Shown piece after piece: positions 17,290 to 59,480 of a stretch of DNA of 64,000 bases. A model generated the notes under the pieces. It worked only from the letters and a program-made list of their open reading frames with translations, was not told the origin of the DNA and made no database searches. The DNA is from Fontimonas thermophila (GTDB lineage: Bacteria; Pseudomonadota; Gammaproteobacteria; Nevskiales; Nevskiaceae), in the NCBI RefSeq assembly GCF_900113085.1, contig NZ_FOOC01000004.1, positions 1-64,000 of the forward strand. Direction: 5' to 3'. The first letter of the stretch is position 1. Every line of letters starts with the position of its first letter. A program made the position numbers and the translations under genes.

Positions 17290-17317
17290 CGGCGGGCCTC
17301 GGCCCGCCGTTCGTTTT
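17290..17317 (+). terminator. Intrinsic terminator of the S8 protease gene
   Basis: A 9-bp perfect stem CGGCGGGCC/GGCCCGCCG with a 2-base loop is followed by TTCGTTTT. It lies 22 bases after the protease stop codon and before apbC. Confidence 0.75.
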
Positions 17318-42244: not shown

Positions 42245-43327
42245 TTGAACCTGCTCATGTGGCCGTACTGGTTTTTGTTTCTGTTGCCGAGTTTTTCCGC
42301 AGCGATGTCGGCCACGCGGCCGCATGCCAAAGGTCGCTATGGGGCACTGACCTGGCCGATCATGGGTATCGTGCTGGTCTTGATGATCGGCTTCCGATTC
42401 GAGGTCGGCGGTGATTGGTTTAACTATCAAGCCCATTACTTCGACGTCTTGGATGTGCCTTTGGGGGAGGTTCTAGAAAGGCCCGATCCTGGTTATTACC
42501 TGCTGACCTGGCTATCGGCTCAGTGGGGGCTGGGCGTCTTTCTGGTCAATACCGTTTGCGGAGTTCTGTTTAGCTGGGGTCTGCTCGCTTTTTGCCAAGC
42601 CCAACCCCGGCCCTGGCTGGCGCTGGCCGTGGCAGTGCCGTATCTGGTGACTGTCGTGGCCATGGGTTACAGCCGTCAGGGAGTGGCCATCGGCCTGGCC
42701 ATGCTCGGTCTGGTGCGGCTGGCGCGTCATCAGAACTTGCAGTTTGTGTTGTGCGTGGGTCTGGCCGCCACCTTTCACAAGACCGCGGTGCTGCTGATTC
42801 CGCTCGCGGTGCTGGCCAATCCACGCGGGCGTCTGTGGTCGGCGCTGTGGGTCGGAATCACCGCGGCGCTCATGTATTGGGCATTGTTGGCCGAAAGCGT
42901 GGATGCCCTGGTGACCAACTACATCGTGGCCGAGTACGAGTATGAATCGGAGGGCGCCGCCATCCGGGTTACCATGAATGCCTTGCCGGCCATGCTCCTG
43001 CTGCTGTTCCGCCGCCGCGTGGTCTGGCAAAGCGCAGCCGAGCGCAATCTCTGGAGCCTGATGGCCTGGGCCGCACTGGCGACCATTCCTTTGCTCATCC
43101 TGCTGCCGTCCTCGACGGCAGTGGATCGCATGGCGCTGTATCTCATTCCGCTACAACCCTTCGTTTTCTCGCGCCTGCCGGATTGGTTGGCGAGGTTTGG
43201 CGGACGGCGGATCTGGATCGTTTCGATCCTCGCCTACTACGCGGCCGTGCTGTTCGTCTGGCTGTTGTTTGCCAGTCACGCCCAGTATTGGCTCCCTTAC
43301 CGCTTTTATCTCTTCGAGCTGCTGTGA
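42245..43327 (+). CDS. EpsG/Wzy-like polysaccharide polymerase
   Basis: A 360-residue polytopic membrane protein with about ten hydrophobic segments. MIGFRFEVGGDWFNYQAHYFDV, AMGYSRQGVAIGLAMLGL and LAATFHKTAVLLIPL are typical EpsG-family elements. It is the only polymerase candidate in the operon, so it is probably the Wzy that joins repeat units in the periplasm. TTG start at 42245 is likely; ATG at 42257 is an alternative. Confidence 0.85.
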   Translation: MNLLMWPYWFLFLLPSFSAAMSATRPHAKGRYGALTWPIMGIVLVLMIGFRFEVGGDWFNYQAHYFDVLDVPLGEVLERPDPGYYLLTWLSAQWGLGVFLVNTVCGVLFSWGLLAFCQAQPRPWLALAVAVPYLVTVVAMGYSRQGVAIGLAMLGLVRLARHQNLQFVLCVGLAATFHKTAVLLIPLAVLANPRGRLWSALWVGITAALMYWALLAESVDALVTNYIVAEYEYESEGAAIRVTMNALPAMLLLLFRRRVVWQSAAERNLWSLMAWAALATIPLLILLPSSTAVDRMALYLIPLQPFVFSRLPDWLARFGGRRIWIVSILAYYAAVLFVWLLFASHAQYWLPYRFYLFELL

Positions 43328-44457
43328 AGATCGCGCTCTTTGCCAATACGGACTGGTATCTCTACAACTTTCGCCGGTCCTTGGCGCTGGCGATCCGCGA
43401 CGCGGGGTATGAGCCATTGCTGCTTTCTCCGCCCGGTCCCTATGCAGCGCGGCTGCAAGCCCTGGGTTTGCGCTGGCAGCCGGTGCCGATGGATCGGCGC
43501 AGTCTCAATCCTTTGCGGGAGTTGGCGCTGCTGTGGTGGCTCAGGGGTTTGCTGAGACGCGAGCGCGTGGATCTGGTGCATGGCTTTACCATCAAGTGCG
43601 CGGTCTATGGCGCGATCTCGGCGCGTTGGGCCGGTGTGCCAGCCCGGGTCGGGGCAGTGGCCGGCATGGGCTATGTCTTTACCAGCGAGGATTTCAAGGC
43701 CCGGTTGCTGCGTCCGGTGGTGCGCAGGCTGATACGCTGGGCGCTGGGCGGCGAGGGGGCACGGCTGATTCTGCAGAACCCGGACGATGTCACCTTGTTC
43801 CGGCAGGCTGGATTGGTGGACGCCGACAAGATTCGCCTGATCTATGGTTCGGGGGTGGATGCCCAGCGTTTTACGCCCGGGCCGGAAGCGGGCAATCGTC
43901 CAGCAGGGCAAGCGTTGCGGGTGCTGCTGGTGGCCCGCCTGCTCTGGGACAAGGGCATTGCGGAATACGTGGAAGCCGCGCGTATGCTCAGGCGCAGGGG
44001 GCTTGCTCTGCATTTTCTGCTGGCTGGCACACCGGATGAGGGCAATCCCGCCGCCATTCCGGTGGCTACCGTCCAGCAGTGGCAGGATGAGGGCGTGATC
44101 GATTGGCTGGGGCACGTGGAGGATATGCCCGCACTCTATGCTTCGGCCGATATCATGGTGCTGCCAAGCTACCGTGAAGGTCTGCCCAAGACGCTGATCG
44201 AGGCAGCGGCCTGCGGTCTGCCGATCGTGACCACTGATGCGCCCGGCTGCCGGGAAGTGGTGACGCACGAACAAGAAGGTTTGCTGGTGCCGGTCCGGGA
44301 CGCCCAGGCGCTGACCGAGGCCATCGCGCGGCTTTCGTCCGATGCCGCTTTGCGCGCCCGCCTCGGCGCAGCGGCCCGCAAGAAAGTTTTGGAACGCTTT
44401 GATGAGCGCATCGTGATCGAGCAGACGCTCAAGGTTTACACCGAGCTGTCCGGTTGA
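43324..44457 (+). CDS. Family 4 glycosyltransferase
   Basis: A 377-residue GT-B enzyme. KIALFANTDWYLYNFRRSLALAIRD opens the protein, VHGFTIKCAVYG and LIYGSGVDAQRF follow, and LPSYREGLPKTLIEAAACGLPIVTTDAPGCREVV is the donor-binding signature typical of PglA/CapM-like enzymes that act on amino sugars or uronates. GTG start overlaps the polymerase stop as GTGA. It is the last gene of the plus-strand operon; no clear terminator was seen in the 92 bases before the convergent wzc. Confidence 0.9.
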   Translation: MKIALFANTDWYLYNFRRSLALAIRDAGYEPLLLSPPGPYAARLQALGLRWQPVPMDRRSLNPLRELALLWWLRGLLRRERVDLVHGFTIKCAVYGAISARWAGVPARVGAVAGMGYVFTSEDFKARLLRPVVRRLIRWALGGEGARLILQNPDDVTLFRQAGLVDADKIRLIYGSGVDAQRFTPGPEAGNRPAGQALRVLLVARLLWDKGIAEYVEAARMLRRRGLALHFLLAGTPDEGNPAAIPVATVQQWQDEGVIDWLGHVEDMPALYASADIMVLPSYREGLPKTLIEAAACGLPIVTTDAPGCREVVTHEQEGLLVPVRDAQALTEAIARLSSDAALRARLGAAARKKVLERFDERIVIEQTLKVYTELSG

Positions 44458-44549
44458 TCCGGCAGAGGTGTGTTAAGGTAACTCCTTCTCGTCGTGCGCA
44501 GCGCATTCCGGCTGCTATCTTTGCCCTTGTTTGATGGAACCTGCCGGGT

Positions 44550-46814
44550 TTAGCTCCCGCTCGGGCGTTTGCGATAGTCGTAGCGATAACCGCCGTAGTA
44601 GTAGCCGTACTTGTAGCCATACCGCCCCTGGCGCGTGCGGCCGATCTGGTTGAACAGCGTGCCGCGCACCGCGACGCCGGCGCGGGTCAGGCGGTTGACG
44701 GTTTCCTCGATCATCCGTAGCGGGTGTTCCCCGGCCTTGAGCACCACCAGGGTGATGCCGGCGTGGCGGCCGATGATGGCTGCGTCGGTGACGGCAAGTA
44801 CCGGCGGGGTATCGATGAGAACGTGGTCGAAGCGTTCAGAAAGCCCTTGCAGCAGTTCCACGAAGCGCTCGTTGATCAGCAGCTCCGCCGGGTTGGGCGG
44901 GTAGGTGCCGGTGGGGATCAGCATCAAGCCCTCGACGGGTGTGGGGCAGAGGATCTGTTCGAGTGTGGCGGCGCCGCTGATCAGCTCGGAGAGACCCGGG
45001 GCGCGCGGTGCGGCGATCAGCTTGTTGATGTGGCCGCGGCGCAGGTCGGCGTCCACCACCACGACGCGGCGCTTGGCCTGGGCGAGCACGGCGCCGAGGT
45101 TGATGCTGACGAAGGATTTGCCAAGATCCGGTTCCGGGCCCGTGAGCATGATACGGTTGTTCGGTGCATCCATCTGCGCAAAGTGCAGCGCCGTGCGCAG
45201 GCTGCGCAGCGCTTCCACGGCCACCCCATTGGGTTCGCGCAGTACGAGCAGGCCATCCGGCTGGCTTTTGCCGCGTTTGAGTGCGCGCGCGAGCCTGGCT
45301 TGTTCCTCGGAGTAGGGAATGGCGCCATACGTCGGCAGACCCAGTTTTTTCTCGACGATGGCAGGGTCCTCGACGCCGGTGCGCAGGGCGTTGAGCACGA
45401 ACACGGCGATGACCCCAAGCAAGCCTCCGAGAATCAGCGAGAGCGTACCCACCAGCAGGCGCTTGGGTTGGGAGGGAAAGCTCGGCAGAAAGGGTGTGTC
45501 GATGATGCGGATACTGCCGATGGTGCCGCTGCGGACGACCTCGAGCTCTTGCGTGCGGTTGAGGAGCGCCACGTACAGCGCCGTGGCGACTTGCACGTCG
45601 CGCATCAATTGCAGGGTGTGCTGCTCGATGTCCGGCAACTGGCGGATCCGGGCGTTGACCTGACGGAGCTGGGCGTCGATCTGCGCAATTTGCGCGTCGA
45701 GGGCCTGCACCACCGGGTGGTTGACGGTGAAGCGCTGCAAGGCTTCGTTGCGCTGCTGGAGCAGCTCGGCTTTGTTCCGCTCGAGCTCGACGCTGCGGGA
45801 GAGCACCAGGGAGGTTTCTTGGGTCAGATCGGCGGTGCCCTGCTCGACCTTGAACTGGTTGAGACGCGCCTCGGCAGTCTCGAGTTTGGCCTTGAGTTCC
45901 GGCAATTGCGCCTTGAGGAAGCTCAGCGTCTGCTCGGCCTCGGCGGAGCGTCGCTCCACGTTTTGCTTTTGATAGGCGTTCAGGATTTCGGTGAGCACCC
46001 GTTGGGCCTGCTGCGGACTCTCGGCGGTGTAGCTGAGGTTGACCATGCCGAGCGCCGTGCGCGAGGCGGTGACCGTGAGCGCGTCCTGAACGGCGCGGAT
46101 GGCGGCGTCCCGGCGCATGCGCATGACGGTGTACTCGGTGCCGGGCTCGCCGCGCAGTTCTTGCACGAATAATTCGATGGGGTCGGTGTCATCACTGAGA
46201 GGGAGCGTGGCCAGCACGCCGACCCGCCCCTCGCCCAAGGGCCGTTGTTCCTCGTCCAGGATCTGGTACTGGCCGTCCGTATCGAGCAAGCGCAGGTAAA
46301 ACGGCCGGTTCAGTGCCTGGGGGGGGACCTGGAACGTGGAGACCGTGATCGCCTCGCCGCCCCAGGCGTACGCGCTGCGGTCGAAGGGTTTGAGCCAGAA
46401 CGGCGGCTCCCCGAAGCGCGCGCTGCGCTGGCGACGCGCGATGGCTGGGCCGAGTAACGGCAGACTGCGCGGCTCGGCCACCACGTCCAGCCCCAACCGA
46501 TCGACCACGGCGCCAATCACCAGGCGACTTTTGAGGATTTCCACCTCGGCCGTGACCGGAATTTCCGTGGTGAAGGCCTCGGCCACCTGGGCAAACGCCA
46601 CGCGCGCAGGATTGGCGTTGGATTCCACCTGCACCAGTGCGTCTGTGGTGTAGCGCGGGGGGGCGATGTACAGGTAGGTCAGGGCCAGGAACGCGGCCGC
46701 ACCGACAAAACCGGCGATCACCGGCCAGCTGGCGATCAGGATGCCGATCAGCTCGCGCAGGTCGATCTGATCGTCGTTTTCGAGTGGTGCGGTTGTGGGG
46801 AGCTCAGCAGTCAT
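44550..46814 (-). CDS. wzc: Wzc: polysaccharide co-polymerase with BY-type tyrosine kinase
   Basis: A 754-residue inner-membrane protein controlling chain length and export with Wza. The Wzz domain starts DDQIDLRELIGILIASWPVIAGF (first membrane helix). A long periplasmic coiled coil contains QTLSFLKAQLPELKAKLETAEARL. The second helix (GTLSLILGGLLGVIAVFVLNAL) precedes the cytoplasmic kinase, with Walker A GPEPDLGKSF, A' VVVDADLRRG and Walker B VLIDTPPV. The tail carries nine tyrosines within about 17 residues, the autophosphorylation cluster. No Wzb-type phosphatase is in the window. Start at MTAELPTT. Confidence 0.93.
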   Translation of the reverse strand: MTAELPTTAPLENDDQIDLRELIGILIASWPVIAGFVGAAAFLALTYLYIAPPRYTTDALVQVESNANPARVAFAQVAEAFTTEIPVTAEVEILKSRLVIGAVVDRLGLDVVAEPRSLPLLGPAIARRQRSARFGEPPFWLKPFDRSAYAWGGEAITVSTFQVPPQALNRPFYLRLLDTDGQYQILDEEQRPLGEGRVGVLATLPLSDDTDPIELFVQELRGEPGTEYTVMRMRRDAAIRAVQDALTVTASRTALGMVNLSYTAESPQQAQRVLTEILNAYQKQNVERRSAEAEQTLSFLKAQLPELKAKLETAEARLNQFKVEQGTADLTQETSLVLSRSVELERNKAELLQQRNEALQRFTVNHPVVQALDAQIAQIDAQLRQVNARIRQLPDIEQHTLQLMRDVQVATALYVALLNRTQELEVVRSGTIGSIRIIDTPFLPSFPSQPKRLLVGTLSLILGGLLGVIAVFVLNALRTGVEDPAIVEKKLGLPTYGAIPYSEEQARLARALKRGKSQPDGLLVLREPNGVAVEALRSLRTALHFAQMDAPNNRIMLTGPEPDLGKSFVSINLGAVLAQAKRRVVVVDADLRRGHINKLIAAPRAPGLSELISGAATLEQILCPTPVEGLMLIPTGTYPPNPAELLINERFVELLQGLSERFDHVLIDTPPVLAVTDAAIIGRHAGITLVVLKAGEHPLRMIEETVNRLTRAGVAVRGTLFNQIGRTRQGRYGYKYGYYYGGYRYDYRKRPSGS

Positions 46815-46883
46815 CGATTGGGGAAGATTGTCACGCGAGTCCGGCCGGGGAGGACACCCCGGCCGAGGCAAGGTGGCGATGGG

Positions 46884-48041
46884 TCAGTCGTTGGAGAACA
46901 CCTGGTCCAGCCGGTCGATCACGAATACCGGCGCCACCAGCGAGGTCAGGCTGGGCAGGATCTGGGCGATGAAGCGGTTGAAGCGGGTGACTTCGCGTGT
47001 CGAAACATAGACGATGTCGCCGCTCGCGAGCTGGAAGCGATCCGCGAGAATGAATGATTCCGGGCTCTTGCCGTTGAGGTGAAAGACACGCGCCTGATTT
47101 CCATCGGCACGGATCACGAAGATGCTCCCCGGCCGGGCGGTGCCGGCCTGAAGATAGTTGGCTCCGGCCAGCACCGCCGTGCCGCGCTGATCGGAAGGTA
47201 CCAGGATCTGCGCCAGCGAGGTGGTGTAGGGGTCGATGAACTCGGTGCGGTTGGGCGCTTCGCCCAAAACATACACCTTGTTGATGTTGCGCGGCACGAA
47301 GACCACGTCGCCGTCCTTCAAGACCCAGCGCTGGCCGAAGTCCGGGCTTTGCAGGAGTTGGAAGACATCCACGGGATAGTCGATCTCGCCCCGCTTGAGC
47401 ACCACGCGGCGCAGATCACCCTCCGGCTTCACGCCGGCGGTGATGACGGCTTCGGTGATGGTCATCGGCCGGTCGGTGATCGGGAAAAAGCCCGGCTTTT
47501 CGACTTCACCCGCCACGGCCACCCGCTGTGAGCGGTACTCGCTCACTCGCAGATTGACCTGCGGCTGGTTGATGAACCGAGCGAGCGCGTCGCGCACCGC
47601 GGTGTAGGCCTCGCCCGGTGTGAGTCCGGCGACGCGCAGTGGCCCGTGCAGCGGCAGAAAGACCCGGCCATCGCTGTCGACCACATAAGTCGACTCAGCC
47701 ACACGGTCAACCAATGCCACTGAATTTGTGCGGGTATCGGCAAACAAGGACTGATTGAGAAAGATCGATAGCACGTCTCCGGGTCCGATGCGGTAGACGT
47801 ATTCGGAGAGTTGTGGAGTGCCCGGCGGGATTTCCGGAATGGCTGGGGGCTGCTGCGCCAGGCTGGCGACCAGAGCGGGCGTCACCGGTTCTACCGTGAA
47901 GGGGATTTGATTGGCAGAGGCGGGTTCGTCGAAGCGCTGAACCATGCCGGCGCATCCACTGATCAAGACGGCGAGCATGCTGGTCGCCAGTAGCCGCAGC
48001 GTGCTTCGGAATGCCTCAAAAAAGGAGGGTACGCCTCTCAT
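46884..48041 (-). CDS. wza: Wza-type outer-membrane polysaccharide export lipoprotein
   Basis: A 385-residue protein with a lipoprotein signal (LLATSMLAVLISGCAG). The polysaccharide export domain starts YRIGPGDVLSIFLNQ, then VDSDGRVFLPLHGPLRVAGLT. Two SLBB domains follow (VAVAGEVEKPGFFPI; VYVLGEAPNRTEFI). The C-terminal part ends near the amphipathic/hydrophobic segment QILPSLTSLVAPVFVI. Longer starts (48080, 48110) add unlikely sequence before the signal peptide; 48041 also leaves a short leader after the promoter proposed here. It precedes wzc by 69 bases. Confidence 0.92.
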   Translation of the reverse strand: MRGVPSFFEAFRSTLRLLATSMLAVLISGCAGMVQRFDEPASANQIPFTVEPVTPALVASLAQQPPAIPEIPPGTPQLSEYVYRIGPGDVLSIFLNQSLFADTRTNSVALVDRVAESTYVVDSDGRVFLPLHGPLRVAGLTPGEAYTAVRDALARFINQPQVNLRVSEYRSQRVAVAGEVEKPGFFPITDRPMTITEAVITAGVKPEGDLRRVVLKRGEIDYPVDVFQLLQSPDFGQRWVLKDGDVVFVPRNINKVYVLGEAPNRTEFIDPYTTSLAQILVPSDQRGTAVLAGANYLQAGTARPGSIFVIRADGNQARVFHLNGKSPESFILADRFQLASGDIVYVSTREVTRFNRFIAQILPSLTSLVAPVFVIDRLDQVFSND

Positions 48042-48069
48042 CGTGGTTTGGGGGTGATAGGGACGGGTA

Positions 48070-48075
48070 ACTGTA
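48070..48075 (-). promoter_or_regulatory. Candidate -10 box for wza-wzc
   Basis: Read on the minus strand this is TACAGT (4 of 6 to TATAAT). It lies about 30 bases downstream of the centre of the CRP-like palindrome, the spacing expected of a class II activated promoter. It would start transcription about 20 bases before the wza ATG. Confidence 0.35.
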
Positions 48076-48092
48076 GCCATCCGGGCGTAATC

Positions 48093-48114
48093 AAATGTGA
48101 TCCAGATCAAAATT
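48093..48114. promoter_or_regulatory. CRP/Clp/Vfr-like binding site upstream of wza
   Basis: AAATGTGATCCAGATCAAAA matches the CRP-family consensus TGTGA-N6-TCACA with a perfect left half and 4 of 5 in the right half, including the flanking AAA. Its centre is about 62 bases before the wza start codon. Regulation by a CRP-family protein is an inference from this match. Confidence 0.5.
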
Positions 48115-48621
48115 GTGGTGAGTCAAAAAAGATCGATGACTTTTCGCAAGCGGTAGCCCCATGCGTCCACTGCTTGCCGTGCGCGGCGTGCACCGAAGCG
48201 CAGCAAGAGGAATAAGGTCCGCGTTCCCGATCTTTGCTCTTGCCCGACTCGCCTTCGAGATGTTGAAAGCTTATCAGAACGGGTTCCGGAAGTAGACTGG
48301 ATCGTCTGGCGAGCTTTGTGTTGGACTGAATTGAGTCGGATCTCTCACGATCCGCCAATGCGCGTAACCCGGATGGCCGACAGGCACCCGGTGGTCCAGG
48401 GCACCGGACGGGATTCGCAGGCGTGCTTTGTATGACAGTGAAGTCTTGGTGATTGCTTGATCGAATGAGGTGCAGTTCATTCGCCAGTGCAGGGGAGAGC
48501 TTCTCTGTTGTCCAGGGGCGATCGCATCCGTCATGATTTTGCCGTTCGCGAACGGTTTCGCGGGCAGTCCTGCGTAGAACCAAGATCCTCACCCGACTTC
48601 ATTCATCTCACCCACCATTTC

Positions 48622-49185
48622 ATGAACATCATCCAGACGCCGCTGCCGGGGGTCGTGTTGTTCGAACCCCGGGTATTCGCCGACGAGCGCGGCTTTTTCG
48701 TAGAGACGTTCCGCGAGACCTGGCTTGCCGAGGCCGGTCATCACGTCCGCTTTGTGCAGGACAACCATTCGCGCTCCCGGCGCGGCGTGCTGCGCGGCCT
48801 GCACTACCAGCTCAACGAACCCCAGGGCAAGCTGGTGCGGGTGGCGCGTGGCCGCGTGTTCGATGTGGCGGTGGACATCCGTCATGGCTCTCCGCATTTT
48901 GGGCGCTGGCATGGTGTGATTCTCGACGATGTGCATCACCGTATGGTCTACATCCCGCCAGGGTTTGCGCATGGTTTTCTCGTGCTCTCGGATGAAGCCG
49001 ATTTCGTTTACAAGTGCACGGCGTACTACGACGCGCCTTCTGACCGCGGCATTGCGTGGGATGATCCGGATCTGGCCATCGACTGGCCGCTGGCGGATTT
49101 GACGCCACAGGTTTCGGCCAAGGACGCTCACCATCCGAGACTGTGCCGGGTCTCTCCCGACCAGTTGCCGGTCTACGTGCGATGA
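48622..49185 (+). CDS. rmlC: dTDP-4-dehydrorhamnose 3,5-epimerase
   Basis: A 187-residue cupin-fold enzyme of dTDP-L-rhamnose synthesis. It has PLPGVVLFEPRVFADERGFFVETF, FVQDNHSRSRRGVLRGLHYQ (catalytic His) and YIPPGFAHGFLVLSD; family length is about 180. ATG at 48622 is the conserved start. It is coupled to rmlD through ATGA. Confidence 0.95.
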   Translation: MNIIQTPLPGVVLFEPRVFADERGFFVETFRETWLAEAGHHVRFVQDNHSRSRRGVLRGLHYQLNEPQGKLVRVARGRVFDVAVDIRHGSPHFGRWHGVILDDVHHRMVYIPPGFAHGFLVLSDEADFVYKCTAYYDAPSDRGIAWDDPDLAIDWPLADLTPQVSAKDAHHPRLCRVSPDQLPVYVR

Positions 49186-50069
49186 AGATTCTGCTCACCG
49201 GGGGCAGCGGCCAAGTCGGTACCGAGATCCGCCGGCGGGTGCACCGATGGGATGGCCTGACCGTCATCGCCCCGACGCGCGCGGAACTGGATCTGGCGCG
49301 GCCCGGAGAGGTGGCTGTCGCCGTGCATCGGTATGCGCCGGATATCGTCATCAATGCCGGGGCGTACACGGCGGTGGACAAGGCCGAGAGCGAGCCCGAT
49401 CTGGCCGAGGCGGTGAATGCGCGTGCCCCTGGCGAACTCGCAAAGGCCTGCGCGGCGCGCCACGTGCCGGTGCTGCATTTTTCGACCGACTATGTGTTCC
49501 CGGGCGATGCAGAACACCCCTACCGCCCCGAGGATGCCACCGCCCCCCTCGGGGTCTATGGCGCCACCAAGCTCGCGGGTGAGCGCGCGCTGCGCGCGGG
49601 CTGTCCCCAGCATCTGATTTTCCGGATCAGCTGGGTGTTTGCCGGGCATGGCGCCAATTTCGTGCGCACCATGCTGCGGCTCGGCGCACAGCGCGATGAG
49701 TTGCGCATCGTCGCCGATCAGGTCGGCGGGCCGACTTATGCCGGCCACATCGCCGATGCGGCGCTGCACATGGTGGACCGTTACCGCCGGGATGGCACCC
49801 TTGCGTGGGGGACGTACCACTACGCCGGAGCGCCGGACGTGAGCTGGTACGCGTTTGCCGGCGAGATTTTCGCCCGTGCCGTCGCCGCCGGCATTTTGGT
49901 GCGCGCGCCGCGCCTCGTGCCGATCGCCACGGCCGAATACCCGACACCGGCGCGGCGGCCGCTGAATTCGCGGATGGATTGCAGCGCGACCGCCAGCGTG
50001 CTGGGCCTGCCACGGCCGGACTGGCGCGTGGGCCTGGATCTTGCGCTGGCAGAATTGCGCGCCGCCTGA
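49182..50069 (+). CDS. rmlD: dTDP-4-dehydrorhamnose reductase
   Basis: A 295-residue short-chain dehydrogenase performing the last step to dTDP-L-rhamnose. It has KILLTGGSGQVGTEI, NAGAYTAVDKAESE, STDYVFPGD and YGATKLAGERAL (catalytic Tyr and Lys), then RISWVFAGHGANFVRTML. The first enzyme (RmlA) is 18 kb upstream; RmlB is not in the window. Confidence 0.95.
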   Translation: MKILLTGGSGQVGTEIRRRVHRWDGLTVIAPTRAELDLARPGEVAVAVHRYAPDIVINAGAYTAVDKAESEPDLAEAVNARAPGELAKACAARHVPVLHFSTDYVFPGDAEHPYRPEDATAPLGVYGATKLAGERALRAGCPQHLIFRISWVFAGHGANFVRTMLRLGAQRDELRIVADQVGGPTYAGHIADAALHMVDRYRRDGTLAWGTYHYAGAPDVSWYAFAGEIFARAVAAGILVRAPRLVPIATAEYPTPARRPLNSRMDCSATASVLGLPRPDWRVGLDLALAELRAA

Positions 50070-50235
50070 GCGGTGGCCGGCTTGGCGGGCCGTTGAAAAA
50101 CGATTGGCTGAACTATCTGCGGCGTTGCGCAGTGCTCGCTGCCTTGCCGATCTTTTGATCGGTCTCGACAGAAAAATCTCTTGCAGCGCTCTTGCCGCCT
50201 TGCATCGGCCATTCTCCCGATGTTTCAACGGCTGG

Positions 50236-51492
50236 TTAGCGCTCTCGCCGATGACGTTTCCGACGCGAATGGATGGTCGGCAAGTGTGCGGGGAGCAGAC
50301 CCACGTAGCTCGCCCGCGGGCGGATCAGTACGCCGCTGGCTTGCTGTTCGAGTGCATGGGCGAGCCAGCCGGCGACGCGTCCGGCGCCGAACAGGGCAAG
50401 ACCGGCTTGTGGGCCCAGCTCGTAGACATCGGCGAGCGCGGCGAGGGCGAAATCCGTGCTCGGGGCCTTGCCGGTTGCCTCGCCGACGGCGTCGATCAGG
50501 GTTTGCAGCCGCGCAAGGCGCGCGGGGCGTGGGCGTAGTTGCGAAAGTTTGCGCAGCAGTAGCGCTGCGCGTGGATCGCCCTGCGGGTACAGCGGGTGCC
50601 CGAACGTCGGCAGGCCCTCGCCGCGCTGCAGGCGACTGAGCACATAGCGCTGGATCGAGGGTGCCTTGAGGGCGTCCTGGATGAAGGCATAGGCACGCGC
50701 CGTGCCGCCACCGTGTGCGGGTCCGGAGAGGGCGGCAAGGCCGGCGGCGACGGCGGCGTGGAGGCTCGCACCGGTGGATGCGACGACCCGCGCGGCAAAG
50801 GCGGATGCATTGAGCTCATGGTCCGCGCACAGCAGCAGCGCGGTGCGTATCAGTTCGGCCAGGCGCGTATCGCCGGGGCGCCAGGCATCGGCGATGACCC
50901 GATGGGCCGGGCGCGCGCTGGGTTCGGTACCGGCGAGCAATGCTGTGGTCTGGCGTAGCAGCGCGGCGGCGCTCTGGCGGCGACGTGCCGGGTCCATGGA
51001 CAGATCGCGCACCGAACCGGGGGCGAGCAGGGGCAGCGCGGCGGCGGTTCGCTCGAGGGCGGGAAGGTCCGGCTGATGGAGCAGGGTGCGTACGGCAGCA
51101 GGCCACGGGTCGGGCGGCGGCAGGGAGAAGGGGTCGTCCGTGCCGCAATCCCACAGCAGCCGGGCGACGTCCTCCAGGCTGGCGCCGTTGTCGACGAGAT
51201 CGGTCACTGCCTGCCCGCGGTAGTAATGGCCCTCCGGGCGGATCAGCGAGATGCGGGTTTCCAGCACCGGCAACCCCCAGGCGAGACTGTGCGCGGCGCC
51301 CTGGGCCGCGCTGCGCCCGGCACGGCGGCGTTCGATCAGGCGGTCGATGTCCTGGGCGAGGTAAAGCCGGCGGCGGGGGTCCGGCCCGGGCCGGGAATGC
51401 ACATGGCCGCGGCTGACATAGGCGTACAGCGTGGCCAGGCTCACGCCCAGGCGTGCAGCGGCTTCGCGTGCGCTGAGGTATTCGCTGCTCAT
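50236..51492 (-). CDS. Citrate synthase-like protein with N-terminal MerR/excisionase-type helix-turn-helix
   Basis: A 418-residue fusion. Residues 1-55 form a DNA-binding HTH_17/MerR-type domain (YLSAREAAARLGVSLATLYAYVSRG, then a wing and DIDRLIERRR). The rest is a citrate synthase fold. Catalytic-type residues remain: ADHELNASAF (His), PTFGHPLY (His) and STDFAL (Asp), with GPAHGGG as the CoA-side loop. It is divergent from prpBC-acnD-prpF across a short region containing a perfect inverted repeat. I infer a metabolite-sensing regulator of the methylcitrate genes, possibly still catalytic. Start at MSSEYL; two ATGs 9 and 15 bases upstream are alternatives. Confidence 0.82.
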   Translation of the reverse strand: MSSEYLSAREAAARLGVSLATLYAYVSRGHVHSRPGPDPRRRLYLAQDIDRLIERRRAGRSAAQGAAHSLAWGLPVLETRISLIRPEGHYYRGQAVTDLVDNGASLEDVARLLWDCGTDDPFSLPPPDPWPAAVRTLLHQPDLPALERTAAALPLLAPGSVRDLSMDPARRRQSAAALLRQTTALLAGTEPSARPAHRVIADAWRPGDTRLAELIRTALLLCADHELNASAFAARVVASTGASLHAAVAAGLAALSGPAHGGGTARAYAFIQDALKAPSIQRYVLSRLQRGEGLPTFGHPLYPQGDPRAALLLRKLSQLRPRPARLARLQTLIDAVGEATGKAPSTDFALAALADVYELGPQAGLALFGAGRVAGWLAHALEQQASGVLIRPRASYVGLLPAHLPTIHSRRKRHRRER

Positions 51493-51517
51493 CGCATTCA
51501 TGCCCATATATTGACGA

Positions 51518-51535
51518 GATCAATCAAGATTGATC
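51518..51535. promoter_or_regulatory. Perfect inverted repeat, candidate operator between the HTH-citrate synthase gene and prpB
   Basis: GATCAATC-AA-GATTGATC: two perfect 8-base arms with a 2-base spacer. It lies 26 bases before the divergent HTH gene start and 84 bases before prpB, where one bound dimer could control both directions. Confidence 0.6.
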
Positions 51536-51619
51536 AATGCGTGGGCGAGTGCCAGAGTATCGATCCATCCCGGCAGATCCGGAATGTCCGCCATCGATGG
51601 GATATCAAGGAGTCTCGAC

Positions 51620-52510
51620 ATGAGCACCCAGACATCCGCGGGCGCACGCCTGCGCGCCGCGCTCGCCGCCGAAAAACCCTTGCAGGTGGTCGGCACGATC
51701 AACGCCAACCACGCCCTGCTGGCGAAGTCGGTCGGTTTTAAGGCGATTTATCTTTCCGGGGGTGGAGTCGCGGCGGGTTCGCTGGGACTGCCGGATCTAG
51801 GTATTTCCACGCTCGACGATGTCCTCACCGACGTGCGTCGCATTACCGATGTCTGCGATCTGCCGTTGCTCGTCGATGCCGATACCGGTTTTGGTCCGAG
51901 TGCATTCAACGTCGCGCGGACGACCAAGAGCCTGATCAAATTCGGGGCCGCCGGGATGCACATCGAAGACCAGGTCGGTGCCAAGCGTTGCGGGCACCGC
52001 CCCGGCAAGGAAATCGTCTCGCAGCAGGAGATGGTCGACCGGATCAAGGCCGCCGTCGATGCGCGGACGGACGACGATTTCGTCATCATGGCGCGGACCG
52101 ATGCGCTCGCCGTCGAGGGTCTGGAGCGGGCGATCGAGCGTGCGGTGGCCTGCGTCGAGGCCGGTGCAGACATGATTTTCCCGGAGGCGATGACGGATCT
52201 GGCGATGTACAAGCGATTCGCCGCCGCCGTGAAGGTGCCGATCCTCGCCAACATCACCGAGTTCGGTGCAACTCCGCTGTACACCGTCGAGGAGCTGCGG
52301 GGCGCCGACGTGAGCCTGGTGTTGTATCCGCTCTCTGCATTCCGGGCGATGAACAAGGCGGCGCTGAACGTCTATACCGCGATCCGCCGCGACGGCACGC
52401 AGAAGAATGTTCTCGATACGATGCAGACGCGTATGGAACTGTATGCGTCGATCGGGTACCACGCCTACGAGCAGAAACTCGATGCGCTGTTCGCACAGCA
52501 CAAGCGGTGA
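51620..52510 (+). CDS. prpB: 2-Methylisocitrate lyase
   Basis: A 296-residue enzyme of the isocitrate lyase/PEP mutase superfamily cleaving 2-methylisocitrate to pyruvate and succinate. It has [43 protein letters not shown] (catalytic Cys loop) and [13 protein letters not shown] at 51620 follows AAGGAG (51607-51612), so the 30-codon extension upstream is not used. It is the first gene of the methylcitrate operon. Confidence 0.96.
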
Positions 52511-52564
52511 CGAGGTGAGCGATCCTCCCATCGCGCCAGCGTCATACCCCCATCAGGAGACGAC

Positions 52565-53719
52565 ATGAGCGAAACCGTAACCCCCGGCTTCAAACCCAAG
52601 AAATCCGTTGCGCTGTCGGGTGTTGCCGCCGGCAATACCGCGCTGTGCACAGTCGGTCGCACCGGCAACGATCTGCATTATCGCGGGTACGACATTCTCG
52701 ATATCGCCGATGTCTGCGAGTTTGAGGAGATCGCGTACTTGCTCGTGCACGGCAAGCTGCCGAACGTCGCGGAGCTGGCGGCCTACAAAGCCAAGCTCAA
52801 ATCGCTGCGCGGTCTGCCGGCGCATGTGAAATCGGTGCTCGAGGAGTTGCCGGCCAACAGTCATCCGATGGACGTGATGCGCACCGGCGTTTCGGCGCTG
52901 GGCTGCGTGCTGCCGGAGAAAGACGATCACAATCATCCCGGTGCGCGCGACATCGCCGACCGTCTGCTCGCCTCGCTCGGATCGATGCTGCTGTACTGGT
53001 ATCACTACAGCCACAACGGCCGCATCATCGATGTCGAGACCGATGACGATTCCATCGGCGGACATTTCCTGCATCTTTTGCACGGCGAAAAGCCCAGGGC
53101 ATCGTGGGTGCGTGCGATGCATACCTCGCTGATTCTGTACGCCGAACACGAATTCAACGCCAGCACCTTCACCTGCCGGGTGATCGCGGGTACCGGCTCG
53201 GACATGTATTCGGCGATCTGCGGCGGTATCGGCGCACTGCGCGGACCCAAGCACGGCGGCGCCAACGAGGTCGCTTTTGAAATCCAGAAACGCTACGAGA
53301 CGCCCGACGAGGCCGAGGCCGACATCCGCAAACGGGTCGAGAACAAAGAAGTGATCATCGGCTTTGGTCATCCCGTTTACACGGTTTCCGATCCGCGCAA
53401 CAAGGTGATCAAGGAAGTGGCGCGCCGCCTGTCGCAGGAGGCCGGCAATACCAAGATGTTCGACATCGCCGAACGTCTGGAAAAGGTAATGTGGGAGGTC
53501 AAAAAGATGTTCCCGAACCTCGACTGGTTCTCAGCGGTGAGCTATCACATGATGGGGGTGCCGACGGCCATGTTCACGCCGCTGTTCGTCATCGCCCGCA
53601 CCGCAGGCTGGAGCGCGCACATCATCGAGCAGCGTATCGACGGCAAGATCATCCGTCCGAGCGCCAATTACATCGGTCCGGAAAACCGCCGGTTCGTGCG
53701 CATCGAGGACCGCCAATAG
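52565..53719 (+). CDS. prpC: 2-Methylcitrate synthase
   Basis: A 384-residue citrate synthase-family enzyme condensing propionyl-CoA with oxaloacetate. It has [62 protein letters not shown] and [14 protein letters not shown], the last distinguishing methylcitrate synthases. AGGAG at 52555-52559 supports the start. It is 54 bases after prpB. Confidence 0.96.
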
Positions 53720-53732
53720 CCGAAGTGACCGT

Positions 53733-56348
53733 ATGAACACCGCCTACCGCAAGAGACTGCCGGGCACCGCGCTCGATTATTTCGATGCGCGCGAGGCCGT
53801 GGATCGGATCCAGCCGGGTGCGTACGACAGGCTGCCGTATACCGCACGGGTGCATGCCGAGAACATCGTGCGCCGCGCCGAGCCGGAGAAGATCCGCGAT
53901 TACCTGACACAGTTGATCGAACGCCGGCGGGATCTGGATTTTCCGTGGTATCCGGTGCGCGTCGTCTGCCATGACATCCTGGGCCAGACGGCGTTGGTGG
54001 ATCTCGCCGGCCTGCGGGATGCCATTGCCCAGCAAGGCGGTGATCCGGCGCAGGTCAATCCCGTGGTGCCGGTGCAGCTCATCGTCGATCATTCGCTCGC
54101 GGTGGAGCATGCGGGTTTCGAGAAAGACGCGTTCGCCAAGAATCGGGCGATCGAGGATCGGCGCAACGACGACCGCTTCCATTTCATCGACTGGACGCGG
54201 CGCGCGTTCAAGAACGTGGATGTGATTCCGCCAGGCAACGGCATCATGCACCAGATCAATCTGGAGAAGATGAGCCCGGTGGTCTACGTTCAGGATGGTG
54301 TGGCTTTCCCCGATACCTGTGTCGGCACCGACAGTCACACGCCGCACGTGGATGCCCTCGGTGTCATCGCCATCGGTGTCGGCGGCCTCGAGGCGGAGAA
54401 TGTGATGCTCGGCCGCGCCTCGTGGATGCGCCTGCCCGACATCGTCGGCGTCGAACTCACGGGCCGGCCGGGGCCGGGGATCACGGCGACGGATGTCGTG
54501 CTCGCGCTCACCGAGTTTCTGCGCAAGGAAAAGGTGGTGGGGGCGTATCTGGAATTTTTCGGTGAGGGGGCATCGGCGCTGACGCTCGCCGACCGCGCGA
54601 CGATCTCGAACATGGCCCCGGAATACGGCGCCACCGCGGCGATGTTTTTCATCGACCAGAACACGCTCGACTATCTGCGCCTGACCGGACGCGACGAGCA
54701 GCAGGTCAGGCTGGTCGAGATCTACGCCAAGCACACGGGGCTGTGGGCCGATGCGCTCAAGACTGCCGAGTATGAGCGCGTTCTGCGGTTCGATCTCTCC
54801 ACCGTGGTCCGCAACATGGCGGGGCCTTCCAACCCGCACCGGCGCCTGCCGACGTCGGCGCTCGCCGAGCGCGGTATCGCCGGACCCTGGCAGATGCCGC
54901 AAGCGGGTACGATGCCGGACGGCGCCGTGATCATTGCCGCGATCACCTCGTGCACCAATACCTCTAACCCGCGCAATGTGATCGCCGCCGGGCTTTTGGC
55001 GCGCAACGCGGTGCGCAAGGGCTTGGCGCGCAAGCCCTGGGTCAAGACCTCGCTGGCGCCCGGCTCCAAGACCGTCGAGCTGTACCTGCGCGAGGCCGGT
55101 TTGCTCGAACCGCTCGAGCAGCTCGGCTTTGGCATCGTCGGCTTTGCCTGCACGACGTGCAACGGCATGTCCGGCGCGCTCGATCCGAAGATCCAGCAGG
55201 AAATCATCGAGCGCGACCTCTACACGGTGGCGGTGCTCTCGGGCAATCGCAACTTCGACGGTCGCATCCATCCGTACGCCAAGCAGGCTTTTCTCGCCAG
55301 CCCGCCGCTGGTCGTCGCCTATGCGATCGCCGGCACGATCCGCTTCGATATCGAAAAAGACGCGCTCGGCGTGGATGCCGACGGCACGCCGGTCACGCTC
55401 AAGGACTTGTGGCCCAGCGATGAGGAGATCGATGCCATCATCGCCAGGAGCGTGAAGCCGGAATTCTTCCGCCGCGTGTACGGGCCGATGTTCAACTTCA
55501 AGGCCGTGGACGAAAAGGTCAGCCCGCTGTACGACTGGCGTTCGCAGAGCACCTACATCCGGCGCCCGCCGTACTGGGACAAGGAAGGCGTCGGCGCGCT
55601 CGCCGCCTATCCCCGTACGCTCAAGGGCATGCGCCCGCTGGCGATCTTCGGCGACAACATCACCACCGACCACATCTCGCCGTCGAATGCGATTCTTCCC
55701 GATTCCGCCGCGGGTGAGTATCTGGCCCGGATGGGATTGCCGGAAGAGGACTTCAATTCGTACGCCACGCATCGCGGTGACCACCTCACGGCCATGCGCG
55801 CCACCTTTGCCAATCCGACGCTGCAGAACGAGATGGTGCGCAACCCCGACGGCAGCATCCGCAAGGGCTCGCTCGCGCGTGTGGAGCCGGAAGGGGTGGT
55901 CATGCGCATGTGGGAGGCGATCGAAACCTATCTCGCCCGCCGCCAGCCGCTGATCATCATCGCCGGCATGGATTATGGCCAGGGTTCCTCGCGCGACTGG
56001 GCCGCCAAGGGCGTGCGTCTGGCCGGCGTCGAGGCGATCGTCGCCGAGGGTTTCGAGCGTATCCATCGCACCAACTTGATCGGCATGGGCGTGTTGCCCC
56101 TGCAGTTCGAGCCGGGTGTGAACCGTTTGACGCTCAAACTCGATGGCAGCGAAACTTACGACGTGATCGGGACCCGCCGGCCGCGCGCGCGGCTGACGCT
56201 CGTCATCCATCGCCGCAGCGGCGAGACGCTGGAAGTGCCGGTCATATGCCGGCTCGATTCCGACGAGGAAGTGTCGATCTACGAGGCCGGCGGCGTGCTG
56301 CAGCGCTTTGCGCAGGATTTTCTCGAGGCCTCGGCCAAGGTGGCCTGA
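53733..56348 (+). CDS. acnD: Fe/S-dependent 2-methylcitrate dehydratase AcnD
   Basis: An 871-residue aconitase-family enzyme dehydrating 2-methylcitrate to a 2-methylaconitate isomer. The 4Fe-4S ligands are in ITSCTNTSNP and FACTTCNGMSG; GTDSHTPHVDALGVI and MDYGQGSSRDWAAKG are family motifs. MNTAYRKRLPGTALDYFDAREAV is the typical AcnD N-terminus. It works with PrpF, in place of the iron-independent PrpD. Confidence 0.95.
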   Translation: MNTAYRKRLPGTALDYFDAREAVDRIQPGAYDRLPYTARVHAENIVRRAEPEKIRDYLTQLIERRRDLDFPWYPVRVVCHDILGQTALVDLAGLRDAIAQQGGDPAQVNPVVPVQLIVDHSLAVEHAGFEKDAFAKNRAIEDRRNDDRFHFIDWTRRAFKNVDVIPPGNGIMHQINLEKMSPVVYVQDGVAFPDTCVGTDSHTPHVDALGVIAIGVGGLEAENVMLGRASWMRLPDIVGVELTGRPGPGITATDVVLALTEFLRKEKVVGAYLEFFGEGASALTLADRATISNMAPEYGATAAMFFIDQNTLDYLRLTGRDEQQVRLVEIYAKHTGLWADALKTAEYERVLRFDLSTVVRNMAGPSNPHRRLPTSALAERGIAGPWQMPQAGTMPDGAVIIAAITSCTNTSNPRNVIAAGLLARNAVRKGLARKPWVKTSLAPGSKTVELYLREAGLLEPLEQLGFGIVGFACTTCNGMSGALDPKIQQEIIERDLYTVAVLSGNRNFDGRIHPYAKQAFLASPPLVVAYAIAGTIRFDIEKDALGVDADGTPVTLKDLWPSDEEIDAIIARSVKPEFFRRVYGPMFNFKAVDEKVSPLYDWRSQSTYIRRPPYWDKEGVGALAAYPRTLKGMRPLAIFGDNITTDHISPSNAILPDSAAGEYLARMGLPEEDFNSYATHRGDHLTAMRATFANPTLQNEMVRNPDGSIRKGSLARVEPEGVVMRMWEAIETYLARRQPLIIIAGMDYGQGSSRDWAAKGVRLAGVEAIVAEGFERIHRTNLIGMGVLPLQFEPGVNRLTLKLDGSETYDVIGTRRPRARLTLVIHRRSGETLEVPVICRLDSDEEVSIYEAGGVLQRFAQDFLEASAKVA

Positions 56349-56349
56349 C

Positions 56350-57537
56350 ATGGCGTATCCGGCACAAATCAGGATTCCCGCGACTTACATGCGCGGGGGG
56401 ACCAGCAAGGGTGTGTTCTTCCGGCTCGCGGATTTACCGGCGCGCTGTCAGGTGCCCGGCGAGGCGCGTGATCGCCTCTTGATGCGCGTCATCGGCAGTC
56501 CCGATCCATATGGTGCGCATATCGACGGCATGGGGGGCGCGACGTCGAGCACCAGCAAATGCGTCATTCTGTCGAAGAGCACGCGCCCGGATCACGACGT
56601 GGATTACCTTTACGGCCAGGTTGCGATCGACAAGCCGTTCGTCGACTGGAGCGGCAATTGCGGCAATCTGTCGACCGCAGCCGGAGCGTTTGCGATCCAT
56701 GCCGGCTTGATCGATCCGGCGCGGGTGATGCGCGACGGAATATGTACCGTGCGCATCTGGCAGGCCAACATCGGTAAAACCATCATCGCGCACGTGCCGG
56801 TCACCGACGGGCAGGTGCAGGAGACCGGCGATTTCGAGCTCGACGGCGTGACCTTTCCATCCGCCGAGATCGTGCTCGAGTTTCTCGATCCCTCCGATGA
56901 CGGTGCATCCGGCGGCTCGATGTTCCCGACGGGGCAGTTGATCGACGTGCTCGACGTGCCAGGGGTGGGTCGGCTTGCGGCGACACTGATCACGTCCGGT
57001 ATCCCGACCGTGTTCGTCGAGGCCGAGGCGCTGGGTTATACCGGCACCGAGCTGCGCGAGACGATCAACACCGATCCCGCGGCGCTGGCGAAGTTCGAGG
57101 CGATCCGGGTGGCCGGCGCGCTGCGCATGGGGTTGATCCACAAACCCGAGGAGGCGGCGGTGCGCCAGCACACGCCCAAGATCGCATTTGTCGCACCGCC
57201 ACGGGATTACGTCGCGTCCAACGGCAGACTCATCAAGGCCAGCGAAATCGATTTGAACGTGCGGGCACTGTCCATGGGCAAGCTGCACCACGCCATGATG
57301 GGCACGGCCGCGGTTGCGATCGCCACCGCAGCCGCGATCCCCGGCACACTGGTCAACCGCGCTGCCGGTGGCGGGATGCGGGAGTCGGTGCGTTTCGGGC
57401 ATCCCTCGGGGACACTGCGCGTCGGTGCCACGGTGGAGCAGGTCAACGGCGAGTGGATCGTCAGGAAGGCGGTGATGTCACGCTCTGCCCGCATTCTCAT
57501 GGAAGGCTGGGTGCGTGTTCCGGCCGATGCTTTCTGA
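56350..57537 (+). CDS. prpF: 2-Methylaconitate isomerase PrpF
   Basis: A 395-residue protein with the diaminopimelate epimerase-like fold. YMRGGTSKGVFFRL at the N-terminus, DGMGGATSSTSKC, DWSGNCGNLSTAAGAFA and the C-terminal GHPSGTLRVGA are typical. It isomerises the AcnD product so aconitase can rehydrate it. It starts 1 base after the acnD stop and ends the operon. Confidence 0.95.
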   Translation: MAYPAQIRIPATYMRGGTSKGVFFRLADLPARCQVPGEARDRLLMRVIGSPDPYGAHIDGMGGATSSTSKCVILSKSTRPDHDVDYLYGQVAIDKPFVDWSGNCGNLSTAAGAFAIHAGLIDPARVMRDGICTVRIWQANIGKTIIAHVPVTDGQVQETGDFELDGVTFPSAEIVLEFLDPSDDGASGGSMFPTGQLIDVLDVPGVGRLAATLITSGIPTVFVEAEALGYTGTELRETINTDPAALAKFEAIRVAGALRMGLIHKPEEAAVRQHTPKIAFVAPPRDYVASNGRLIKASEIDLNVRALSMGKLHHAMMGTAAVAIATAAAIPGTLVNRAAGGGMRESVRFGHPSGTLRVGATVEQVNGEWIVRKAVMSRSARILMEGWVRVPADAF

Positions 57538-57733: not shown

Positions 57734-59248
57734 TTACTCGATGACGCGCAGTTCTACGCGACGGTTTTCTTCGCGACCTTCTTCCGTGTCGTTGGATGCG
57801 ATCGGGCGGCTCTCGCCATATCCGACCGGCCGCATGCGCTTACCCTGCACGCCCCGGCCTTCGAGATAGACCTTGACGGCATTGGCGCGGCGCTCGGACA
57901 GGCCGAGGTTGTAGCTGTCGGTGCCGATCGAGTCGGTATGGCCTTCGAGCTCGACATCGATGTTCGGATAGGCCTTGAGCGTCTCGGCGACCTCGTTGAG
58001 GATCTCGCGCGCCTGCGGCGTCAGCCGGTCGGAGTCGAACTCGAACTTCACACCGCGCAGGATGAAGCTCTGCTCGATCGCGCAGCCATTGGCGTCCACC
58101 TGTTCGCCGGGCCGCGGTTTGCGGCAGTCGCCGGTCAGGGCGCAGCCATTGGGCAGCACCTTGGCGCCGGGCGGTGTGCGCGGGCATTCATCGAGGTAAT
58201 CGGGGATGCCATCGCCATCGGAGTCGAGCGGACAGCCGTCAGGTCCCACCGGCACGCCGGGCGGTGTTCCCGGGCATTTGTCGAGTTCATCGGGGATGCC
58301 GTCGTTATCGCGATCCTCGAGCGAGCAGCCTTCGGCGTTCACGCGCGTTCCGGGCGGAGTGCCAGGGCATTTGTCGAGGTAGTCGGGCACGCCGTCGCCA
58401 TCGGAGTCGAGCGGGCAGCCGTTGACATTGACCGGGACACCGCGCGGGGTGTTCGGGCACTGGTCACGGGCGTCGGGCACGCCGTCGCCGTCGCTGTCAA
58501 GTTCGCAGCCATCCGATCCGACCAGCGTCCCCTTGGGCGTGTTCGGACACTTGTCGAGATAATCCGGCACGCCGTCCTGGTCGAGGTCGGTGGGGCAGCC
58601 GTCGGAATAGACCGTGACCCCCTTGGGAGTGCCGGGGCACTTGTCCTGCGCATCCGGCACGCCGTCACCGTCTTCATCGTAGGGGTTGGCGCCGAACTTG
58701 TAGCTCACGCCGAGCGCGCCGGTCCAGAGGTAGAACGTGTCATCCGGCACGGTGACGCCGTTCTCGGTCGTGCCATTGATGAAGTCGAGGTTGTAACGGA
58801 TGTCCAGGCGTGCATCCCAGCGCTCGCCGAGCTTGAACAGCGCTCCGCCACCGGCTCCCAGGCCGACGCCATTGAGGCCGACGGTCAGAAAATCGATGTC
58901 GTGCCCATTGCCGTTGATCAGCAAAAAAGGGCGGATGCGCGCGGTGTCGGGAGCCAGGTAGCCAACGAGGTTTGCGCCGAGCGTGAGGCGTTCATAGAAA
59001 TTGCCTTCCGGCAGATGGCTGACGTCGAGCTTGCTATAGGTGGCCTCGAGTTCGAGACCGAAATGCGGCGAGATGCCTTTGCCGACCACGAGCCCGCCGA
59101 AGGGGCCGCTGTCGAGGTCATCCGAACCCGAGATGACGCCGCCCACCATCGGCGATAGATAGAAGCGATCGTCAAACTCACTCCCCTGCGCCGAGACGGC
59201 CCCGCAGACCAGCAACGCGATGGCGCCCAGTCTCCCATGCTTGGACAT
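57734..59248 (-). CDS. OmpA-family outer-membrane protein with thrombospondin type 3 repeats
   Basis: A 504-residue protein in three parts. After a signal peptide (LLVCGAVSAQGS), an eight-stranded beta-barrel domain runs to about residue 190 (YLSPMVGG to LGVSYKFGANPY). Six calcium-type TSP3 repeats follow (DGDGVPDxxDxCPxTPxG). The C-terminal OmpA/MotB peptidoglycan-binding domain has FEFDSDRLTPQAREIL, LEGHTDSIGTDSYNLGLSERRANAV and ENRRVEL. The long acidic stalk suggests calcium-stabilised spacing between barrel and peptidoglycan. GGAG before the ATG supports the start. Confidence 0.93.
   Translation of the reverse strand: MSKHGRLGAIALLVCGAVSAQGSEFDDRFYLSPMVGGVISGSDDLDSGPFGGLVVGKGISPHFGLELEATYSKLDVSHLPEGNFYERLTLGANLVGYLAPDTARIRPFLLINGNGHDIDFLTVGLNGVGLGAGGGALFKLGERWDARLDIRYNLDFINGTTENGVTVPDDTFYLWTGALGVSYKFGANPYDEDGDGVPDAQDKCPGTPKGVTVYSDGCPTDLDQDGVPDYLDKCPNTPKGTLVGSDGCELDSDGDGVPDARDQCPNTPRGVPVNVNGCPLDSDGDGVPDYLDKCPGTPPGTRVNAEGCSLEDRDNDGIPDELDKCPGTPPGVPVGPDGCPLDSDGDGIPDYLDECPRTPPGAKVLPNGCALTGDCRKPRPGEQVDANGCAIEQSFILRGVKFEFDSDRLTPQAREILNEVAETLKAYPNIDVELEGHTDSIGTDSYNLGLSERRANAVKVYLEGRGVQGKRMRPVGYGESRPIASNDTEEGREENRRVELRVIE
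58135..58690 (-). repeat. Tandem TSP3 (calcium-binding) coding repeats
   Basis: Six consecutive copies of about 90 bases encode D-x-D-x-D-G-x-x-D followed by CPxTPxG and a closing Gly-Cys, with only minor changes between copies. One copy has RDNDGIPDE. Confidence 0.85.
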
Positions 59249-59330
59249 CAGCGTATCTCCGAATCCCTGTATTGTGATCCCACCGGCAAAACCGAGAGAT
59301 TCCCTTTCACCGTGTGAGCAAGCCCCCGAC

Positions 59331-59336
59331 TTTATA
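59331..59336 (-). promoter_or_regulatory. Candidate -10 box for the OmpA-family gene
   Basis: Minus-strand TATAAA about 83 bases before the start codon; the -35 match is weak. It lies in the 232-base divergent region shared with the BIG2 lipoprotein gene. Confidence 0.35.
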
Positions 59337-59480
59337 CGGAGGATTCCGACACAATTGCGGTCCCGACTTCTCTCTCTTGCGACGGCGGATGCATTATGAT
59401 GGGACTTAGGTAGGCCGTAAATATCGTTGCGGCAGGGAATCGTGTCAGGCAACCCTTCAAGTTTTCGTGGGAGCAGACAG

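Follow-up and report, generated by a model that had tools for sequence, protein, structure and literature searches.

A conserved 33-bp element between prpB and a divergent HTH-citrate synthase gene as the candidate operator of a local regulator

We propose that the 18-mer GATCAATCAAGATTGATC, which sits in the gap between prpB and a divergent gene for a protein with helix-turn-helix and citrate-synthase domains (HTH-CS; Table 1), is part of a 33-bp operator for HTH-CS, and that HTH-CS represses both promoters of this gap until a ligand in its pocket releases it; we assign this reading a probability of about 0.8. The site was analysed within a stretch of 64,000 nucleotides of Fontimonas thermophila DNA (the window). 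Computation shows an element that is conserved, has one copy in the genome and is tied to HTH-CS rather than to the prp genes as such. HTH-CS is likely to be a local, self-controlling one-component regulator, in which an excisionase/MerR-like HTH is joined to a complete citrate-synthase domain.

The sequence-only reading had proposed the 18-mer as an exact palindromic operator of two 8-base arms and a 2-base spacer, with its sequence and coordinates correctly given. A scan of the whole genome (2.73 Mb) found no second exact copy and three other places with three mismatches each, and a reversed control pattern gave no match. Conservation in relatives was seen as well, an outcome that favours an operator, as did that of the copy-number scan. 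The symmetry, which had been taken to be rare by chance, proved to be ordinary: the window contains perfect 8-2-8 dyads at 17291, 23418 and 51518, and 10 mononucleotide shuffles of the window gave 0-4 of them (mean 1.6). After these shuffles, the rarity of the dyad was dropped as evidence, and the weight for an operator rests on conservation and not on symmetry. The proposal that the control region between the methylcitrate genes and their divergent neighbour contains an operator was upheld: the site is the only one in its genome, relatives conserve it, and it goes with HTH-CS. The part that was not supported was the exact palindrome as the binding unit, since the whole dyad is perfect in just two of the 82 regions described below.

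These 82 orthologous regions comprise the best 80 of 558 matching loci, the window and one close relative (G009), with L006-L008 left out as duplicates of L035-L037. The wider set is a sample of close relatives, mostly Dyella, Pseudoxanthomonas, Luteimonas, Lysobacter and Stenotrophomonas. HTH-CS was divergent from prpB in all 85 inspected loci (82 distinct), and the 17-mer ATTGATCAATCTTGATT was present upstream of HTH-CS, within three mismatches, in every one of the best 80 of 558 loci. The majority consensus of the 82 regions, read on the minus strand, is RTTGATCAATCTTGAT-N7-RTCAAYAT. It is longer than the 18-mer and centred differently: toward HTH-CS it continues, after a 7-base gap, into a further RTCAAYAT half-site, and toward prpB it continues as TTGATC. 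Twelve bases, GATCAATCTTGA, were present exactly once in each of the 82 regions. The dyad TTGATCAA was kept in 80-82 of the 82 regions per base pair and the dyad TCAAT-C-TTGA in 79-82; for TTGAT-N7-ATCAA, the five arm pairs were kept in 76-82 regions and the next two pairs inward in 28 and 35. As we read the sequence, the element may consist of four TTGAT half-sites in alternating orientation (Table 1). It is very improbable that the exact symmetric 18-mer is itself the binding unit, with one dimer on its two 8-base arms. The complete dyad occurs in the window and in G009, as that arrangement would have it, but in no other of the 82 regions; its two outer base pairs are complementary in just 18 and 15 of them, and the three dyads named above are near-invariant instead. 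Among the four nearest relatives, the left-hand GATC of the 18-mer (51518-51521) is kept in G009 alone. In one of the wider loci, a contig labelled Candidatus Eremiobacteraeota (L049), an HTH-CS/prpB pair 61% and 68% identical to that of the window accompanies a perfect element; its presence there reflects either mis-binning or transfer.

Table 1. Features of the HTH-CS/prpB intergenic region and the adjoining genes (window coordinates)
Feature	Position	Strand	Remarks
HTH-citrate synthase (HTH-CS) gene	50236..51507	-	HTH_17 residues 10-62, Citrate_synt residues 77-398
Conserved element in full, in the HTH-CS direction: ATTGATCAATCTTGATTGATCTCGTCAATATAT	51506..51538	-	candidate operator overlapping both predicted promoters
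Phylum-wide core TCAATMTTGAT-N7-RTCAAY	51510..51533	-	GTCAA in the window, departing from the phylum pattern at one base
18-mer	51518..51535		omits half-site 51511-51515; outer GATC 51518-51521 not generally conserved
Half-site TTGAT	51533..51537	-	near-invariant in prp-type loci only
Half-site TTGAT	51530..51534	+	overlaps half-site 51533..51537; together TTGATCAA
Half-site TTGAT	51523..51527	-	
Half-site TTGAC	51511..51515	+	TTGAT in most relatives
Predicted -10 of HTH-CS promoter, CAATAT	51508..51513	-	then ATG (51501-51499) after 6 nt
Predicted prpB -35, TTGATC	51530..51535	+	within candidate operator
Predicted extended -10 of prpB, TGC-CAGAGT	51550..51558	+	TG at this place in 78/82 regions
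prpB, methylisocitrate lyase	51620..52510	+	
prpC, 2-methylcitrate synthase	52565..53719	+	
acnD, 2-methylisocitrate dehydratase	53733..56348	+	
prpF, 2-methylaconitate isomerase	56350..57537	+	start from translation; listed ORF begins at TTG 56308

The prpB-prpC-acnD-prpF cluster spans 51620-57537 on the plus strand. Its flanks (57734-59740, 43183-50069) hold what we take, by eye from the translations, to be an OmpA-like gene with acidic repeats and genes of exopolysaccharide/rhamnose type. Between the 3′ ends of the upstream plus-strand gene and HTH-CS lie 151 nt (50085-50235; ends GCCGTTGAAA / TTTCAACGGC) that form one long imperfect hairpin (-58.3 kcal/mol, z -3.26). It is single-copy in this genome and is therefore not shown to be a repeat element.

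To separate the regulator from the pathway genes, we used a close set of 61 genomes, the window's own and 60 relatives. An HTH-CS ortholog at 75-100% identity was present in five of them, the window's included; the remaining matches covered the catalytic half only, with at most 37% identity over at least 100 residues, like ordinary citrate synthases (one 66-residue stretch among them reaches 46%). When the N-terminal 110 residues were searched in 369 genomes of the class, 12 had a match; seven of the matches were weak, and five, counting that of the window's own genome, were clear (E <= 3e-20). prpB (E <= 1e-70) was found in 59 of the 61 genomes. The exact word RTTGATCAATCTTGAY occurred in the same five genomes as HTH-CS, once in each and at the HTH-CS locus, and AATCAAGATTGATCAAT was invariant in all five. 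As the exact site is confined to the five HTH-CS genomes and prpB is present in 59 of 61, the word is tied to HTH-CS and not to the prp genes. One-mismatch places of RTTGATCAATCTTGAY numbered 12, in nine genomes (G009 among them), none of them at prpB by coordinates. In the window's own genome, places with three mismatches were many; the two with two mismatches (C12:343574 and C15:4986) fell within long ORFs, of 575 and 693 codons, and were discounted.

The association extends across the phylum. In a sample of 398 genomes, 48 hold a total of 49 HTH-CS genes (E <= 1e-40), and the sequence TCAATMTTGAT-N7-ATCAAY was found beside the start of 44 of these genes, exactly in 38 and with one mismatch in six. 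The window's gene is among the six; its last half-site, GTCAA and not ATCAA, counts against our reading. In G166 the element has an N6 gap instead of N7, and no match was found at the gene's own start in four cases (G556, the second copy of G730, G468 and G793), which likewise counts against it. Dinucleotide shuffles of the same upstream regions gave 0/980 within two mismatches. The phylum alignment was anchored by a regular expression, with positions 1-10 biased and those four genes left without an anchor, and counts of loci are not counts of independent events because the loci are related by descent.

The gene divergent from HTH-CS varies. It was a stand-alone citrate synthase paralogue in 31 of the 49 cases, prpB in five, a family III CoA-transferase in four, a 2-hydroxyacid dehydrogenase in two, acnD in one, a methyltransferase in one and none of these in five; the probes came mostly from loci with the element, and the last class may include genes with other divergent partners, so that we read nothing into the presence of a partner as set against that of the element. 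G468, for example, has a MipA-type divergent neighbour and no element, a further point against our reading. The diverged HTH-CS genes of G468 and G793 (L195, L213) share another upstream word, approximately TAAATCTGTAC...GTCCA, together with an altered recognition helix, VGRKN; this word is perhaps a re-specified operator. On plasmid At of Agrobacterium fabrum C58, a perfect element is flanked on one side by the start of the citrate synthase gene ATU_RS25365 and on the other by the conserved part of the HTH-CS gene ATU_RS25370. The annotation starts ATU_RS25370 upstream of the element, in our view too far up. Plasmid annotation labels the HTH-CS family mostly as 'citrate synthase family protein'.

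Whole-genome scans allowing one mismatch detected the element in 48 of 52 HTH-CS genomes, as a single site in 44 and as several in four, with none in the remaining four; the control pattern had 0 matches. With a slightly wider pattern, the window's genome gave one site, and the other seven matches all had three mismatches. With its single site at the promoter of the regulator itself, this genome has the arrangement of a local autoregulatory operator. The additional one-mismatch sites of G009 and G608 fall within ORFs (737 and 703 codons, respectively) and were discarded. Among stray single sites, just one is not far inside a long ORF, that of G630 (one mismatch; L261 ~2027-2050; G630:C6:1233326), which overlaps the 5′ ends of two opposite-strand ORFs of 137 and 256 codons. 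In G730, two elements (0 and 1 mismatch) are found ~2.7 to 2.9 kb from the second HTH-CS, whose own start lacks one; the pair occupies one intergenic region (L197 1096-1288; G730:C3:429995-430187) between genes for a 2-hydroxyacid dehydrogenase and a short-chain dehydrogenase.

The element covers parts of both predicted promoters, the -35 on the prpB side and the stretch from -35 to -10 on the HTH-CS side. A -10-like nAnnnT is placed exactly 17 bp from TTGATC in 81 of the 82 regions, the next best spacing being represented in 12. On the HTH-CS side, the first ATG/GTG lies 6-7 nt past the predicted -10 in 55 of the 82 regions; in the window it is the second ATG (51499-51501) that does so, and this is the likelier start. 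The position of the start codon so soon after the predicted -10 suggests that the HTH-CS mRNA may be leaderless. Upstream of HTH-CS in Pseudoxanthomonas broegbernensis (L091), GGCAGC hexamers follow one another in a run that adjoins the predicted -10 of prpB, beside the operator.

The conservation might be that of a pair of core promoters set back to back, to which no regulator of their own binds, in agreement with the overlap between the element and the predicted -35/-10 hexamers and with the 17-bp placement of the -10-like sequence. However, bases outside the prpB hexamers are equally constant (GATCAATCTTGA, 82/82), TTGATC is not retained outside the prp group whereas TCAATMTTGAT-N7-ATCAAY is, and the exact element is absent from the 56 genomes of the close set without HTH-CS, 54 of which have prpB. 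We regard this explanation as quite unlikely. Less far-fetched, though still unlikely, is the idea that HTH-CS activates in the manner of MerR rather than represses. Its HTH is MerR/excisionase-like (HTH_17, with MerR_1 just under the cut-off), and target promoters of the MerR family are described as having a 19-20 bp spacer; the predicted (unmapped) prpB promoter has a normal spacer of 17 bp in 81/82 regions, and the site lies over the predicted -35, not in a long spacer.

HTH-CS scored above the Pfam gathering thresholds for HTH_17 (35.9 vs 27 bits) and Citrate_synt (197.7 vs 27), and below those for MerR_1, by a thin margin (21.4 vs 21.6), and MerR (19.9 vs 28.2). Pfam gave HTH and citrate-synthase models only, with no sigma-54 activation domain. 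All 21 NCBIfam models that matched HTH-CS scored under their cut-offs, including those for 2-methylcitrate synthase (TIGR01800, 144.2 vs 421.3 bits; PRK12351, 113.1 vs 550), and the protein is 34% identical to the window's PrpC over residues 219-406. An AlphaFold2 model (mean pLDDT 90), weak at residues 67-71, combines a small HTH domain with a citrate-synthase fold, which aligned with 6abv, a citrate synthase fold (Z 33.9, rmsd 5.5, 332 aligned), and with PrpC 6s6f (Z 33.0, rmsd 6.0, 330 aligned). None of the solved structures among the 60 listed of 74 matched sequences covers the HTH, because the best stretch starts at query residue 95 or later.

In an alignment of 134 HTH-CS rows, which holds some genomes twice, H230, R313 and R396 were kept in 134/134 rows and H304 and D352 in 131/134. 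From the alignment to PrpC, we take H230, H304 and D352 to be the catalytic His, His and Asp and R313 and R396 to be substrate-binding arginines. The recognition helix, TLYAYVSRG, is among the best-conserved parts of the protein (96-100% per position). A FastTree of 94 citrate-synthase domains placed all 58 HTH-CS together (support 0.90) and the 15 of prp type together (0.97); the 35 stand-alone synthases, some PrpC among them, formed no clade with this root. As one tree with one outgroup, the window's PrpC, it gives only a hint.

The intact catalytic residues in nearly all 134 rows would also suit a cycle enzyme with a vestigial HTH, the element being bound by another transcription factor. 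We consider this highly unlikely, since the element follows HTH-CS across changes of neighbour and of bacterial class and the recognition helix is so well conserved. Of the four genes that lack the element, three also have an altered helix: it reads TLYAYVGRKN in both G468 and G793, and the second copy of G730 has TVYAYASRGS. The match between helix and element is imperfect, which counts against our reading: G556 lacks the element and keeps the consensus helix, and G517 (TLYANVSRG) and G795 (TVYAYVSRKK) have altered helices and keep the element.

Taken together, the element is very probably the operator of HTH-CS. The protein may bind the TTGAT half-sites as a citrate-synthase dimer, or as two dimers, and would thereby shut off the promoter of prpBC-acnD-prpF and its own; bound along 51506-51538, it would lie over the two of them. 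Repression of both is probable. HTH-CS would let go when its pocket holds a metabolite of the cycle, which could be 2-methylcitrate, oxaloacetate or propionyl-CoA, so that a propionyl-CoA load would induce its own disposal. That the ligand sits in the citrate-synthase pocket seems somewhat favoured.

In its design, HTH-CS resembles MocR/GabR, which are described as one-component regulators that carry the HTH at the N terminus and reuse an entire metabolic-enzyme domain as the sensor. They pair a GntR-type winged HTH with a PLP aminotransferase fold, whereas HTH-CS pairs HTH_17 with citrate synthase, and we claim no kinship of sequence. Like HTH-CS, PrpR of Salmonella is encoded divergently from the methylcitrate genes that it controls locally. 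It is described as a sigma-54-family activator of prpBCDE tied to 2-methylcitrate (PMC12153269); HTH-CS, unlike this sigma-54 type, has HTH and citrate-synthase domains only. The same paper reports that PrpR of Xanthomonas citri represses prpB, that it binds the palindrome GTTGCAA-N2-TTGCAAC in the prpB promoter and that its DNA binding is unchanged by 2-methylcitrate or propionate (PMC12153269). Because that site is a different word, we rejected its identity with the HTH-CS element. The authors liken this protein to Salmonella PrpR, and the term 'citrate synthase' is absent from the main text (PMC12153269); judged by its description, it is probably not an HTH-CS. Given the result with X. citri PrpR, 2-methylcitrate should not be taken for granted as the ligand of HTH-CS. 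The PrpC/CitA enzymes share the fold and the catalytic residues with HTH-CS, in which the HTH domain is extra. Among the papers listed by our literature search, none was on an HTH-citrate synthase regulator; a comparison of proteobacterial malonate and propionate regulation, reportedly in J Bacteriol in 2012, might name the motif.

Tentatively, HTH-CS may represent widespread proteobacterial regulatory citrate synthases, whose pocket reads the acyl-CoA/oxaloacetate status and frees a strictly conserved operator that different lineages have wired to different genes. Such proteins would still bind, and perhaps turn over, oxaloacetate and acyl-CoA. The genes wired to them plausibly belong mostly to acyl-CoA or hydroxyacid metabolism: the methylcitrate cycle, stand-alone citrate synthase, family III CoA-transferases and 2-hydroxyacid dehydrogenases. 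For this widespread regulator family (48 of 398 sampled phylum genomes), there is now a DNA word with a few half-sites, and what HTH-CS senses can be tested directly, with a probe of 45 bp and a small set of metabolites. If our reading is true, citrate synthase would join those enzymes of metabolism that have become one-component regulators.
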